DNA from: Micromonospora purpureochromogenes
Lineage (GTDB): Bacteria; Actinomycetota; Actinomycetes; Mycobacteriales; Micromonosporaceae
Direction: 5' to 3'
Assembly (NCBI RefSeq): GCF_900091515.1
Contig: NZ_LT607410.1
Span: 2,170,001-2,234,000, forward strand
DNA: 64,000 nt
The notes beneath the pieces were generated by a model. It was given only the letters and a program-made list of their open reading frames with translations. It was not told the origin of the DNA and made no database searches. Position 1 is the first letter of the stretch. Each line of letters starts with the position of its first letter. Shown in pieces: positions 10,180 to 14,779 of the stretch. A program made the position numbers and the translations under genes.

Positions 10180-12165
10180 TCAATCGATCAAGTCTTTAAT
10201 GGTCGCCGTGAGGCCGGCCAGCCGATCGTCAGCGCGCTGGCGCTGGTGCCTTACCCACTCCTTCCCCTCGGCGGCGATCCCCTCGAGGACGTTGAGGGTG
10301 TGGACGAGCCCGGATGCGTCCAGCGAGACCTTGGCCAGCATCAAGGCGTCCTCGTCCGGCTGGACGCCGTCGGTGATGGATTCGGTCACCCGGACCGAGA
10401 TTGGTTCGCCGTTGAACAGGGTCAGCTCAAACGTCTGCTGCTGGGTCTCCGGGCCGTCGATCCGAACGGCGGCGACGGCGTCGAAGCGGTAGTTCAGCCG
10501 CTGCATCGTCCGGTAACCGCCATCCTTGAAGTCGAGGTCGATGTTCACCTGGCGGACGCCGTCGTCAGTCAAAAGGAACAGCAGGAGCCGGTACCGCGAG
10601 TAGCGCCACGGACCGTGGGGGACCCGGGCCCGCTGGTACGACCGAGCGGGCGCCTCGATGAAGGCTTGCGCGATCACCTGGCTCGGCCGGAGCCGGTAGT
10701 GCCGCATGGCCGCATTCACCAGAATCTTGCGGTCACACTCCAGCCAGGACGCCATCTCCGCGTCCGACGGCTTGTCCGACAGCCTCTGCTGCCAGCGGTC
10801 GAACGCCCCCCGCCGTGCCGCCAACTGGCGGGCACGTTCCACCTCGTCCGCCGCCACCCGCCGCCGCTCCGCGACAATGCGGAAGCAGGCCCGTGCCTCT
10901 ATCACTGCGGCAGCCGCGGCGAGCAGCACCCACGCCGTTCCGGCCAACGGCGCCGTCAGCACGGCGGCCGGCACCATCCAGAAAGCTCCTGCGGCAAGGA
11001 CCGCCAGCCCGCCCAGGTGCAGGACTGTCGTGGTGAACGGGACACGGAGTTCGACCCGGTGCGCCATCAGCGTGTCCTGCTCCCACCGCTGTCGCACGTC
11101 ACTGACCAGATGACGGATCAGCCAGGCGATCCGCTCGGCGCCGACCCGATCTTCGCGATAGAGCTCGACGACCTCGTCGCGAAGGTGCCTGCGGATGCCG
11201 GCGGTCTGGGTCAGCCAGTGGGAGCGGTCGGTGTCCCTGGGCACGTACCGCCTGAAGTAGTCATCGAAGTACCGGTCCACCTTGCGGGCGAAACCGCCCG
11301 CCGGCGCCTCAGCCCGCCGCTGGCGGGGTGGCGTGAACGTCGATTCCATGGCTCTGCGGCGTGCCTGCCGGAAGTGCCGGTCGACACCGCCCACTGCGAA
11401 CGCGGCGAGACCGGCCACACAGGCGAGGTAGCCGAGGATCGAGGGCAGCTCACCGCGGTGCAGCAGCAACGCGGCGATCTTGCCGGCGGCGAGCACGAAC
11501 GCGGCTGCTCCCACGACGGCACGCACCCACACGCCCAGGGGAGTCGACGCCGGCTCGACGGGCAGGACCCGGGGCGGCACGGGTGAGGGGTGGAAGAACT
11601 TCCAGATTCGTCCCGCCCTGTCACCCGCCAGACGACCGGCGCTGGCCCGCTTGGCCGAGCGTTGCCACATCTGGTCCTCCATCGGACCGTCGAGCAGCAC
11701 CCCGAGGTGATCAACGATTTTGTCGCGCTGAGTGCGCTCCAGCTCGTCGAGTTCCTTGATCACCAGCTCGGTCTCCGCGGTGTTCAGGGAATTGAGCAGC
11801 CGCAGGACGGCCCGTAGGCCCGCCCTCCACTCGTCGCCCCCGTCTAGGTGCGGGAAGCTGTCGCAGATGGCGGACAGATGGTCGAAGTCCTCGCCCAACT
11901 GGCGCAGGGTGCGGCCGCTCAGCAGGGCGAGCAGGCGGTGGAACTGGACCTCGTCGGTCACGTACCCCTCGGCAGCGGCCTCCTCGATGAGCTGCCGCGC
12001 ACGGTCCCGCACCCGGGCGTCGAGATACCTGACCCCTACCCGGAACTTGTGTTCCGGAGAGGCATTCGGGGGCAGCTGGTAGTAGACGTCGCCGTGGATC
12101 GCCTGGGCCTGCACCCCGACCTGCGCGCCGTCCTGGGCGATGTTGGTCGTGATCGGGGCAGTCAT
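10180..12165 (-). CDS. Four-helix membrane protein with N-terminal amyloid-like signalling motif
   Basis: A 661-residue protein, last gene of a three-gene operon; its ATG overlaps the stop of the nucleosidase gene (ATGA). Residues 7-30 hold a motif with core VGVQAQAIHGDVYY, almost the same pattern as VGVQAGQIYGNVTV in the upstream protein. This Val-x-Val-Gln-Ala ... Ile-x-Gly-x-Val pattern matches bacterial amyloid signalling motifs described on NLR-type proteins and their effectors. Residues ~35-190 are helical and soluble. Membrane helices lie at ~211-235, 242-262, 377-400 and 402-425, with a basic helical loop between the pairs. The C-terminus (~500-661) is soluble and strand-rich, ending in a helix. 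No enzyme motif seen. Sensor, scaffold or pore is all possible. Confidence 0.85.
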   Translation of the reverse strand: MTAPITTNIAQDGAQVGVQAQAIHGDVYYQLPPNASPEHKFRVGVRYLDARVRDRARQLIEEAAAEGYVTDEVQFHRLLALLSGRTLRQLGEDFDHLSAICDSFPHLDGGDEWRAGLRAVLRLLNSLNTAETELVIKELDELERTQRDKIVDHLGVLLDGPMEDQMWQRSAKRASAGRLAGDRAGRIWKFFHPSPVPPRVLPVEPASTPLGVWVRAVVGAAAFVLAAGKIAALLLHRGELPSILGYLACVAGLAAFAVGGVDRHFRQARRRAMESTFTPPRQRRAEAPAGGFARKVDRYFDDYFRRYVPRDTDRSHWLTQTAGIRRHLRDEVVELYREDRVGAERIAWLIRHLVSDVRQRWEQDTLMAHRVELRVPFTTTVLHLGGLAVLAAGAFWMVPAAVLTAPLAGTAWVLLAAAAAVIEARACFRIVAERRRVAADEVERARQLAARRGAFDRWQQRLSDKPSDAEMASWLECDRKILVNAAMRHYRLRPSQVIAQAFIEAPARSYQRARVPHGPWRYSRYRLLLFLLTDDGVRQVNIDLDFKDGGYRTMQRLNYRFDAVAAVRIDGPETQQQTFELTLFNGEPISVRVTESITDGVQPDEDALMLAKVSLDASGLVHTLNVLEGIAAEGKEWVRHQRQRADDRLAGLTATIKDLID

Positions 12166-13316
12166 GACAACCCCTTTGCCACGACTATCAGTGCGGCCAG
12201 CTTCGCGGCCAGCTCGGCCACATCGACCACCAGGCCGCGCAGTCTCTTGAGCGTCACCACCAGGGTGCCTCGGCTGCGGACGGTGTTCTCCTTGAGGCAG
12301 TCACTCGCGACGTCCAGCTCCGACTCCGCTGCCGCGTACGTCTCCTCGTCGAGCTGACCGTCCCGGTGTGCCTTCCTCATCCGGTCCCGCAGCTCGGCGA
12401 TGCCGGCCGTCAGGTCGACTGGCCGATCCCGGTCGGGGCCGACCGTGACGTTGCCGTAGATCTGCCCGGCCTGAACTCCTACCCGGGCGTTGCCCGTCGC
12501 GATGTTCCGGTTGGTAATGCTCATCGGCTCACTCCCGCCCTTGCCGATCGACGACGGCCGGTCGGCCGCGCCTTCGGCGATCAGCTCCTGTGCCAGTGCC
12601 GTCGCGAACGCGGCGGCGTGCGCCACCGCCCGTGGCTGCCAGTTCTCGCCGTCGGTGACCGTCTTGCTCCCGTCGGCGCGGTCGCTGATGCCGCGGACCA
12701 CGACCACGGGCAGGGCATGGTTGAGGTGGCCGGCCTGGGCGACACCAGCGGCCTCCATCTCGATCGCCACCGCGTCGTTGTAGTGCTCGCGCACCCACCG
12801 GGCCTGCTCGGAGACCGCGGAGTCCTGCACGATCTCGCCGGCGGCGATCGGTCCGAAGTGAACGGCCGGCGGGGTGCCGGCGGAAAGGCCAACCGCCCAG
12901 TCACCGCGCCGCGCCAGGTGGTGGGCGATCTGGCTCGGGCCATGCGGGATCTCCCACGCCTTCGGCCGGGCCTTCAGGCCGTCGTCCTCGCTCGTGCCGC
13001 CGTGATAGGCGTAGATCTTGGTCGCCACCACCACGTCGCCGAGGCGAATGCTGGGCCACAGGCCGCCGGCCACGCCGACGAAGAGCACGGCCGCGGGGGT
13101 GAACTCGGCGATGGCGCGTTCGGCCAGCACCGCCGCCGGGTGGTTGCCCTTGCCCACCAGGCCCAGCGCCACTCGACATCCGGTTCTGCCGAGCCGGCCG
13201 ACCTCGAACCGGGTCCCGGCCGGATGCCGGTGGACTCGAAGGTCGGTCAACTTCTCCCGGACCGCCTCGTACTCGAGGTTCAGGGCCGTGAGGATCACGA
13301 CGAGAGTGCTGTTCAT
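12162..13316 (-). CDS. PNP/MTAN-family nucleosidase fused to an amyloid-like motif
   Basis: A 384-residue protein. Residues 1-247 are a PNP_UDP_1 nucleosidase/phosphorylase: GVAGGLWPSIRLGDVVVATK (81-100), the ribose/base site VAIEMEAAG (183-191) and the catalytic-Asp motif VVRGISDRAD (D212), as in MTA/SAH nucleosidases. Residues ~267-293 carry the motif VGVQAGQIYGNVTV. The tail is a charged helix pair (AELRDRMRKAHRDGQLDEET) and an amphipathic C-terminal helix. Housekeeping MTAN is about 230 residues without such a tail. PNP-family domains are known as immune effectors, including ones that destroy ATP in phage-infected cells, and as N-terminal domains of fungal NLRs. Substrate here is unknown. 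Both ends overlap neighbours by ATGA, so the three products are probably made in balance. Confidence 0.88.
   Translation of the reverse strand: MNSTLVVILTALNLEYEAVREKLTDLRVHRHPAGTRFEVGRLGRTGCRVALGLVGKGNHPAAVLAERAIAEFTPAAVLFVGVAGGLWPSIRLGDVVVATKIYAYHGGTSEDDGLKARPKAWEIPHGPSQIAHHLARRGDWAVGLSAGTPPAVHFGPIAAGEIVQDSAVSEQARWVREHYNDAVAIEMEAAGVAQAGHLNHALPVVVVRGISDRADGSKTVTDGENWQPRAVAHAAAFATALAQELIAEGAADRPSSIGKGGSEPMSITNRNIATGNARVGVQAGQIYGNVTVGPDRDRPVDLTAGIAELRDRMRKAHRDGQLDEETYAAAESELDVASDCLKENTVRSRGTLVVTLKRLRGLVVDVAELAAKLAALIVVAKGLS
12522..12545 (-). promoter_or_regulatory. Possible internal ribosome site and start inside the nucleosidase gene
   Basis: On the coding strand GGGAG is followed after 7 bases (TGAGCCG) by ATG at 12524-12522, codon 265, in frame. 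Initiation here would release a separate 120-residue piece consisting of exactly the amyloid-like motif and the helical tail, without the nucleosidase domain. Confidence 0.4.
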
Positions 13317-14047
13317 GCTTCTGCCGCCTCCTTGTCTGTCGAACCGGTAGGTCGGGTCATCGGGGGGTGAAGTGCCGTGCGCGGGCCGGGGCGGAACAGC
13401 CGTGCGGGACGACCGGTGTCCGTCTTCCTGGTAGGACCGGCGGGGACGATGAAGCCGTTGACGCTCTGGACCTTGCGGTAGAAGTTGCGGGGATCGAGGC
13501 GGACGCCCCAGACCGCCTCGTAGACCTCCTGCAACTCGGAGATTGTGAATGTCGGGCCGCAGAACGCGGTCGCCAGCGCCGAGTGCTCCAACTTGGTGCG
13601 GGCCCGCTCCACGCCGTCCGCGATGATCCGTCGGTGGTCGAAGGCGAGTCGGACGTCAGCGGAGAGCGCGCGGTCGGTAGGCGTCCAGCACGCGTCGGAG
13701 GCGTCCGTGCCGGCGACCGGCTCGGGCAGCCGGGGCGCGATCGCCAGGTAGGCCACCGAGACGACCCGTCCCCGAGGGTCGCGCCCCGGCGTGCCGTAAA
13801 CGCCAAGCTGTTCGAGGTGCAGGTGGTCGGCGTCGAGACCGGCCTCCTCGGACAACTCCCGGTGAGCCGCCGCGAGCAGGTCCTCCTCGGCGTGGTTGAG
13901 GAAGCCGCCGGGAAGGGCCAGCGCGCCCCGGTGCGGCTCGATTCCACGCTTTACGAGCAGCACCTGGAGGCGGGATTGGCGCAGGGTGAGGATGACCAGG
14001 TCCACCGCGAGCAGCGCGGTGGGAGGAACCCAACGATCGCCGGACAT
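13313..14047 (-). CDS. Nudix-domain / winged-helix protein, NrtR-like regulator
   Basis: A 244-residue protein. The N-terminal Nudix fold is clear (RWVPPTALLAVDLVILTLRQ, then ALPGGFLNHAEEDLLAAAHR, then ELSEEAGL). Counting from GG to REL gives one residue more than the canonical Nudix box (G-x5-E-x7-RE), so the catalytic geometry may be lost. Residues ~165-230 are the winged helix of NrtR proteins (FTISELQEVYEAVWGVRLDP, then FYRKV). NrtR regulators bind ADP-ribose or related NAD metabolites and repress NAD-linked genes. Here it is the first gene of an operon with a nucleosidase, overlapping it by ATGA. It is more likely the sensor or regulator of that module than a housekeeping NAD regulator, which is inference. 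Confidence 0.85.
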   Translation of the reverse strand: MSGDRWVPPTALLAVDLVILTLRQSRLQVLLVKRGIEPHRGALALPGGFLNHAEEDLLAAAHRELSEEAGLDADHLHLEQLGVYGTPGRDPRGRVVSVAYLAIAPRLPEPVAGTDASDACWTPTDRALSADVRLAFDHRRIIADGVERARTKLEHSALATAFCGPTFTISELQEVYEAVWGVRLDPRNFYRKVQSVNGFIVPAGPTRKTDTGRPARLFRPGPRTALHPPMTRPTGSTDKEAAEA

Positions 14048-14079
14048 GGATGCACACTAGGCTTATTGTCAGCCCGACA
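14048..14079 (-). promoter_or_regulatory. Promoter/operator of the Nudix-nucleosidase operon
   Basis: A -10-like TAGTGT (14059-14054) ends six bases before the ATG, implying a nearly leaderless message. Just upstream, TGTC-AGCCC-GACA (14067-14079) is a spaced palindrome that could be the binding site of the operon's own winged-helix protein. No good -35 is visible. Confidence 0.4.
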
Positions 14080-14224
14080 GGAAGTCGTCCCGGCTGTCGG
14101 CTTTCGGCAGGACCGAGCGCTCGGCGGGGCGATGCCCGGTCGGCGGAGGCGCGCCGCACCACGGTTCGCCCGGCCGGTGTCGCGCTGACCGGGTCGGCGT
14201 CGCTCGTCGCCTAGGATGGGACTC

Positions 14225-14779
14225 ATGAGCGCTGAGGCCGTCGGGATGCACATGCCCGCTGTCGTCACGCTCGACGACGTCGCGGCGATGAACGCCGCCG
14301 ACCCCAACGGTCATCGCTACGAGACGAGCCCCGAGGGGGTCCTGTCGGTCATGCCGCCGCCCGACTCGGAACACGCGATGATCGCCAGTCGCCTCTTCGC
14401 CTGGCTGATCATGACTGGGTGGCCCGCCGAGCAGGTGCTCCAGGCGGCCGGCGTGCGCATACCCGGGCCGGACGGCGACGGCGGCCGGATCCCCGACCTG
14501 ACCGTGTGGCGGAAGCCCCCACCTCGCGGAGTCTGGTCTGCGGTGGCCGACGTCGCCCTGGTGATCGAGATCGTCTCGCCCGGTTCGGAGGCCATGGATT
14601 CCGTGACGAAGGTCCGGGAGTACGCCACGGCGGGCATCCCCCAGTACTGGGTGGTGGACCGGGACGGCGGACAGACCGTCACGCTGCACCGGCTCACCGG
14701 GCAGGGCGGGTACGAGGAGCGGGCGAGAATGCCGCTGGCCTGGCTGCTGCAGACGTCGCCCGCCGACCACCTCGACTGA
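14225..14779 (+). CDS. Uma2-family PD-(D/E)XK nuclease-like protein (DUF820)
   Basis: A 184-residue protein with the Uma2 layout: an N-terminal helix (VVTLDDVAAMNAAD), the helix with SEHAMIASRLFAWLI, then the restriction-endonuclease-like core IPDLTVWRK ... VALVIEIVSPGSEAMDSVTK, where the Asp, Glu and Lys could form the nuclease site, and AGIPQYWVVDRDG near the end. Such genes are abundant in actinobacteria and cyanobacteria; their targets are unknown, and many are in mobile DNA. ATG 14225 is chosen; ATG 14216 would add three residues. It is divergent from the Nudix-nucleosidase operon with 177 bases between the two starts. Confidence 0.85.
   Translation: MSAEAVGMHMPAVVTLDDVAAMNAADPNGHRYETSPEGVLSVMPPPDSEHAMIASRLFAWLIMTGWPAEQVLQAAGVRIPGPDGDGGRIPDLTVWRKPPPRGVWSAVADVALVIEIVSPGSEAMDSVTKVREYATAGIPQYWVVDRDGGQTVTLHRLTGQGGYEERARMPLAWLLQTSPADHLD

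Follow-up and report, generated by a model that had tools for sequence, protein, structure and literature searches.

BASS3 is described as an RHIM-like motif (PMC8086366, PMC7889193), and amyloid motifs that occur in matched pairs have fibril and prion evidence behind them (PMC8086366, PMC9815663). PNP_UDP domains likewise carry amyloid signalling motifs, for one of which prion behaviour was shown in a fungal model (PMC9815663), and the same domains form a known class of nucleotide-depleting effectors (PMC10952713, PMC12881547); the PF01048 effectors of CBASS and Detocs degrade (d)ATP (PMC10952713). Here we describe a three-gene operon, NUD-PNP-MEM, in a 64,000-nucleotide stretch of the Micromonospora purpureochromogenes genome (NZ_LT607410.1, positions 2,170,001 to 2,234,000; referred to below as the window). 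It encodes a Nudix regulator, a nucleosidase and a membrane protein, and the last two share a short motif. We call this motif RHIM/BASS3-like, a family name that we presume by eye on the basis of its VQAG core.

All three genes lie on the minus strand. NUD (13313..14047; 244 aa) combines a Nudix domain with an NrtR-type winged helix. PNP (12162..13316; 384 aa) consists of an MTAN-like nucleosidase domain (residues ~6-241), the motif (residues 271-290, 12447..12506, NIATGNARVGVQAGQIYGNV) and a helical tail (~300-384), while MEM (10180..12165), a membrane protein of 661 aa, carries the motif at its N-terminus (residues 8-27, 12085..12144, NIAQDGAQVGVQAQAIHGDV). The ORFs and coordinates given in the initial annotation of this DNA were confirmed, as were the 4-nt overlaps (ATGA) that join NUD to PNP and PNP to MEM; the three genes are one operon. 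Across genomes, all three are held by 40 of 44 module loci (exceptions: L048, L052, L053, L060), a count that omits L054-L059 and L061-L067, which carry small motif proteins, the MEM fragments of G075, or a MEM or PNP of distant kind, as well as L115-L127, which have a PNP without MEM or, in L117, a second PNP. Natural NUD-PNP fusions occur twice among the 120 PNP homologues listed (P0207, P0236). Because of this joint occurrence and these fusions, the proposal that the three genes form one module, and would act as a single functional unit, is supported.

How does this locus compare with the systems already described? As in BASS pairs, especially those of the RHIM-like BASS3, the proteins of adjacent actinobacterial genes share a short RHIM-like motif that is matched better within than between loci; in contrast to a BASS-type signalosome, the operon has no NLR/STAND NTPase on the receptor side, no NB-ARC and no recognised Bell domain, its partners are a nucleosidase and a TPR/transmembrane/PH-like membrane protein, and its first gene encodes a Nudix regulator. 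In fungal PNP_UDP effectors with PUASM or HRAM, too, the nucleosidase domain is followed by an amyloid signalling motif that has its match in a neighbouring gene; that gene encodes an NLR, where the one described here encodes a membrane protein, and the motif of the present operon is RHIM/BASS3-like rather than PUASM. With the PNP immune effectors (Cap17; those of Detocs, CBASS and NLR-like systems) the locus shares a PF01048 domain with intact catalytic residues, although no CD-NTase, SLOG or two-component sensor was seen in the operon. NrtR and AraR repressors, finally, resemble NUD in their Nudix-winged-helix architecture and in a palindromic operator-like site adjoining their own gene, but the NUD site, judged by its distribution at <=1 mismatch, suggests that the main target is a single one, the operon of NUD itself, and not NAD or arabinose genes. 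That no described system has this gene set, as had been stated, holds for the literature covered. The accessible parts of PMC8086366, PMC7889193, PMC12261475, PMC9815663, PMC12881547, PMC10952713, PMC7159879 and PMC8195603 describe no Nudix-PNP-membrane operon, and none of the titles and abstract openings listed for the open-access literature deals with one; subscription papers and most preprints lie outside this search, and the novelty is provisional.

The reading we favour, tentatively and at somewhat less than even confidence, is that the operon encodes an accessory amyloid-type signalosome of two proteins, a membrane protein in the role of the NLR and the nucleosidase as effector, and that it is autoregulated through a repressor of its own. 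MEM would detect an insult at the membrane, and its N-terminal motif would then nucleate and template the same motif in PNP. Clustered and activated, PNP would strip the base from purine nucleotides (our guess is 5'-phosphorylated ones such as ATP), and the loss of purine nucleotides would arrest or kill the cell. NUD would bind the palindrome beside its own gene and hold expression of the operon down until it is released by a nucleotide ligand; the ligand precedent in the NrtR family is ADP-ribose-like. If this is true, amyloid (RHIM-like) immune signalling extends past NLR receptors to membrane proteins, and is linked in bacteria to nucleotide-destroying PNP effectors and to a dedicated, possibly nucleotide-responsive regulator.

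The match between the two motifs is beyond chance. The PNP tail aligned locally with MEM at a score of 66, compared with a mean of 35.9 (standard deviation 5.3, maximum 58) for 1000 shuffles of MEM and with 44 for the next-best called protein of the window (>150 aa). The near-identity reported in the initial annotation is thereby upheld. The PNP motif follows the catalytic domain but falls ~90 residues short of the extreme C-terminus, the remainder being helical tail. Since 5 of the 12 identical residues in the window pair use different codons, a recent duplication of the DNA does not explain the match. The consensus N-x-A-x-G-x-A-x-V-x-x-Q-A-x-x-V/I-x-G was recovered in 115 PNP and 105 MEM homologues (120 of each searched), a search whose pattern itself fixes several positions and leaves only the remaining ones informative. 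Could the two copies have changed together? In 34 non-redundant operons, drawn from 40 PNP/MEM pairs, cognate motifs covary: their similarity averaged 60.3 versus 47.1 for non-cognate pairs (0 of 20000 permutations as high), and the partial Mantel correlation given catalytic-domain distance was 0.39 (0 of 5000 as high). Individual loci illustrate this, with VGFQA common to both partners in L045 and L050, VGAQA in both partners of L106, and N.G instead of V/IHG in both PNP and MEM of L112-L114.

PNP belongs to Pfam PF01048 (PNP_UDP_1, E 1e-33) and matches the PADLOC PN-superfamily effector (E 1e-20); its best-matching homologues are 94-95% identical, among the matches listed, and in the PDB the proteins closest to it by sequence are MTANs. 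The full nucleosidase site noted earlier is indeed there: E15, M187, E188, S211 and D212 are invariant in alignment A2 (40 of 40 rows) as well as in a wider set of 40 loci plus the reference (41 of 41). K56 is kept in 38/40 and 32/41 of these sets, K115 in 37/40 and 33/41, and R117 in 40/40 and 41/41. We take these three residues to lie at or near the 5'-thio-group site of MTAN and to replace parts of the 5' pocket; they hint at a 5'-phosphorylated substrate. A housekeeping MTA/SAH nucleosidase was considered and is ruled out by the patchy distribution; PNP scores 101.8 bits against the equivalog NF004079, below the cut-off of 169, and it is not generally conserved in the genus. As a separate observation, L111 is a four-gene variant in which a small PNP-tail-like ORF stands between PNP and MEM (L111:8262-8498).

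MEM matched no family above cut-off in Pfam or other family profiles, and no NB-ARC, NACHT or AAA match was obtained in MEM, PNP or NUD, although no search was aimed at a same-motif NLR elsewhere in the genome. From its predicted model, MEM looks like a protein built of the motif, a TPR-like alpha-solenoid (residues ~25-177, 11635..12093), two transmembrane hairpins (~210-274, 11344..11538, and ~377-461, 10783..11037) and a PH-superfold-like C-terminal domain (~498-640, 10246..10674), without an NLR ATPase. The hairpins comprise four long predicted helices that appear membrane-spanning, a call made by eye on hydrophobicity. Foldseek with the whole protein gave no match at E<=0.001; with the C-terminal domain alone it returned PH-like folds whose best E, 3.4e-3, lies slightly above that limit, so that we regard the PH-like assignment as moderate.

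NUD matches PF00293 (NUDIX, E 7e-18) and PF21906 (NrtR_WHD, E 4e-15) in Pfam, and its closest solved structures are 3gz5 (E 3e-26; titled MutT/nudix family protein), which we take to be an NrtR, and AraR 5bs6 (E 3e-24). The Nudix box REUxEE is retained in 39 of 41 NUD-bearing loci, with the next Gly in 26 of those 39. Upstream of NUD in the window lies a 23-bp palindromic operator-like site, CTTNNTGTCRNNNTGACANNAAG (14062..14084, no strand assigned). At <=3 mismatches the palindrome, CTTNNTGTCANNNTGACANNAAG, found 5' of NUD, adjoins NUD or PNP in every NUD-bearing locus except L104 (40 of 41); it precedes NUD in 37 loci, whereas in L112-L114 it stands downstream of a NUD copy but ahead of PNP. 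The off-module locus L063 has a match with 3 mismatches. At <=1 mismatch the palindrome occurs in 17 of 121 genus genomes, in 16 of them at the module and in G019 without it; the backward control pattern was matched in 2 of the 121. The own genome, which encodes a second NrtR-type protein elsewhere, has it at <=1 mismatch in exactly one place, this operon. Since at <=1 mismatch the site stands in this genome only at its own operon, and marks the module in 16 of the 17 genus genomes that have it, NUD is probably a dedicated local autorepressor. This disfavours the earlier suggestion that NUD is a signal-transducing sensor of NAD pools. The G019 genome, without a module match, holds two one-mismatch copies 34 bp apart (G019:C1:2499649-2499705).

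Is the module a housekeeping element? MEM is matched in 22 of the 121 genus genomes. It is intact beside an intact PNP in 12 of them (G000, G005, G013, G017, G035, G042, G054, G064, G068, G077, G088, G106), broken in four (PNP intact in G049, G085 and G113, most of it gone in G097), present as fragments in three (G004, G008, G075) and represented by distant paralogues in three (G025, G093, G102); G106 has in addition a second copy with PNP intact and MEM broken. The breaks are inserted ORFs in G049 and G085, in both cases resembling a transposase by eye, and frame breaks in G113 and in the second copy of G106; L049 is flanked by ORFs that look recombinase-like. Matches to the A2 PNP profile, distant ones counted, occur in 28 of the 121 genomes, and G007 keeps NUD with a PNP truncated before the motif. 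Given that MEM occurs in 22 of 121 genomes, intact in 12, the module is accessory and not housekeeping. Neither of the two circumstances named at the outset as counter-evidence was seen: in place of a conserved housekeeping context there is a patchy, decaying distribution, and the partners are not dispersed, the PNP tail (E<=0.001) being found in 17 of 121 genomes, always in a module or its remnant, and otherwise only in one small mobile-element-like protein of G088.

At the level of the class, MEM matched 27 of 394 genomes, 24 of them (the own genome included) at E<1e-70; PNP is also present in all 24, and NUD, PNP and MEM stand together in 23 of 23 loci (window excepted), a figure conditional on MEM, by which these loci were chosen. 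L112-L114 are divergent, with MEM 26-27% identical. The homologues matched by MEM carry Micromonospora names, and a genome-contig scan with a single query sequence returned one locus. Of the flank to the right of the module, 15.2-16.5 kb of the window and portions of the 18.7-25 kb stretch are kept in G002, G004, G005, G007 and G008, and the 15.2-16.5 kb part alone in G003. At this conserved site the relatives' DNA resembles the module only in G004, where a MEM fragment adjoins a Uma2-family gene, and G005 and G007 have module genes at other genomic places; the module is therefore an accessory element of varying position.

Location in a defence island had been raised as a check. At a cut-off of 1e-10, the 131 module-neighbour proteins matched 84 PADLOC families and the 109 control proteins matched 11, counts of models and not of proteins, since many models match one protein (the 131 are what a length limit left of 133; the controls went from 123 to 122 by length and lost 13 shared-flank repeats by hand). 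The strongest helicase-type and type IIG matches somewhere among the 131 were HmaA (E 1e-174) and REase_MTase_IIG (E 8e-74), and the commonest Pfam families of the neighbours are not defence-specific. These PADLOC matches lend weak support to a defence-island location; such a location in general is not established.

Several results weigh against an immune signalosome with PNP as effector. When 20 large neighbours, hand-chosen from the 131, were checked singly against PADLOC at 1e-20, two matched, both of them in L108. Only 3 of 34 PNPs had the cognate MEM motif as their top-ranking match; many motifs are near-identical across loci, and the permutations on motif similarity leave some shared ancestry in. 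The nearest characterised relatives of PNP by sequence are MTA/SAH nucleosidases. PNP of this type (E<=1e-40) occurs without MEM in 12 of the 36 class genomes that have it, and thus also works in other settings. Finally, four genus copies combine a broken MEM with an intact PNP and the reverse was not seen, from which MEM itself may be costly.

This last pattern (G049, G085, G113 and the second copy of G106) is what one would expect if MEM were the effector, PNP sensing or making a nucleotide-derived signal and the motif-recruited MEM opening or damaging the membrane. Its four long membrane-spanning-looking helices fit such a role, as do proposals that PNPase domains make second messengers and that transmembrane SLATT proteins are nucleotide-responsive effectors (PMC7159879). 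However, MEM makes up half of the operon length, so breaks will often fall in it anyway; its TPR-like and PH-like parts would be as much in place in a sensor or platform as in a pore; and it is PNP_UDP that belongs to a known nucleotide-depleting effector class (PMC10952713, PMC12881547). We consider MEM as effector doubtful. Rather unlikely, too, is a non-immune operon for nucleotide or envelope homeostasis, in which NUD would sense a nucleotide, PNP salvage or detoxify and MEM localise PNP. The NrtR-family membership of NUD, the resemblance of PNP to MTA/SAH nucleosidases, and neighbours whose common families are not specific to defence and of which few matched PADLOC singly would all suit it; the presence of intact PNP and MEM in just 12 of 121 genus genomes, with decayed copies in others and in varying places, would not, nor would the three further PF01048 proteins of the own genome or a palindrome found there, at <=1 mismatch, once, at this operon.

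Might the shared motif be a simple docking or oligomerisation element instead of an amyloid one? This would be compatible with other readings, and the single-chain model fits either view: most of the MEM motif lacks structure in it, with a mean pLDDT of 29 over residues 1-10, 39 over 11-20 and 74 over 21-30. We nevertheless think it improbable, the VQAG core and the matched-pair architecture being parallel to motifs with published fibril and prion evidence (PMC8086366, PMC9815663). A toxin-antitoxin-like arrangement, with NUD as both the repressor and the neutralising partner of PNP, would account for the gene order with its 4-nt overlap, for the autoregulatory design and for the fusion of NUD to PNP in two homologues. 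It leaves MEM and the motif pairing unexplained, however, and in the fusions PNP would be permanently neutralised, which makes this reading very unlikely.

For the signalosome reading, an informative comparison is a sister system, NUD/PNP2/MEM2, in which the positions of the motif are exchanged: MEM2 (~640 aa, with membrane helices by eye) has it at the C-terminus and PNP2 at the N-terminus. The system also has a gene of 222-256 aa and a NUD relative (~57% identical), which are head-to-head in all three loci with enough flank, and its intergenic regions contain GTCA-N3-TGAC-like palindromes by eye. Scans matched 16 of 40 genomes of one genus and 2 of 6 of another and led to 12 loci with a readable motif pair (sister-system loci: L123, L124, L125, L153, L163-L172); L173-L178, distant MEM2 relatives with no PNP2 match in the stretch examined, were excluded. 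For 11 pairs, of 7 types grouped after the score matrix had been seen, cognate motifs scored a mean of 125 (minimum 74) versus 33 (maximum 60) between types, with 0 of 20000 permutations as high. The twelfth pair (G521, L153) carries a further motif matched by eye, giving 12 pairs of about 8 kinds. Compared with the query, the scaffolds of ten homologues show identities of 36-59% for MEM2 and 55-80% for PNP2. By sequence comparison, these matched pairs are strong evidence that the motif serves as a specificity link. Identical motif residues mostly share codons (19/19 in L166, 23/24 in L124, 18/21 in L171, but 6/10 in L169), and this points to gene conversion or duplication as a source of the copies in several loci. 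MEM2, too, has defects, an in-frame stop in G535 and a frame break in G544.

The sister system thus offers a natural experiment of twelve loci with about eight matched motif pairs; because homologous scaffolds carry different pairs, motif swaps give direct access to how specific and how orthogonal amyloid signalling is. It is possible, though on balance we doubt it, that actinobacteria use amyloid signalosomes free of NLRs, with a membrane protein templating a nucleosidase effector. The shared motif would then serve as a barcode that can be exchanged: homologous scaffolds of the sister system carry entirely different pairs, each nearly identical within its operon, in several loci probably through gene conversion. 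A protein of mobile elements with two copies of the window-type motif could act as decoy or trigger. The classic form was also found, in L120, where the C-terminal motif of a PNP is matched at the N-terminus of an adjacent NB-ARC protein; L115, L121, L122, L126, L061 and L062 gave no clear matched pair by eye.

Some further relatives and neighbours were noted. A small protein (about 60-85 aa) with two tandem module-type motifs occurs in 8 of the 121 genus genomes at E<1e-8 (L055:9032-9232, L054:9178-9435, L193-L200) and adjoins, in 4 of 8 loci and by eye, the same large transfer-protein-like ORF, for which Pfam gave no match; on such integrative elements it is a possible decoy, trigger or regulator. 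The Uma2-family gene of the window (14216-14779) adjoins the module and is retained beside the MEM remnant in G004, whereas G002, G003, G005, G007 and G008 have no DNA matching it at this site. Three genomes have a two-gene relative without PNP or NUD (L056:8067-9763, L057, L058:8336-10032), next to genes that look by eye like those of cytochrome c biogenesis; its first gene encodes a small protein of motif and helices, its second a protein with motif, TPR-like part, transmembrane part and C-terminal domain. Other PNP-like proteins lie near Macro-domain proteins in L061, L062 and L122; the Macro domain falls below the Pfam cut-off in L061 and L062, while that of L122 exceeds the cut-off and is part of a fusion with TIR.

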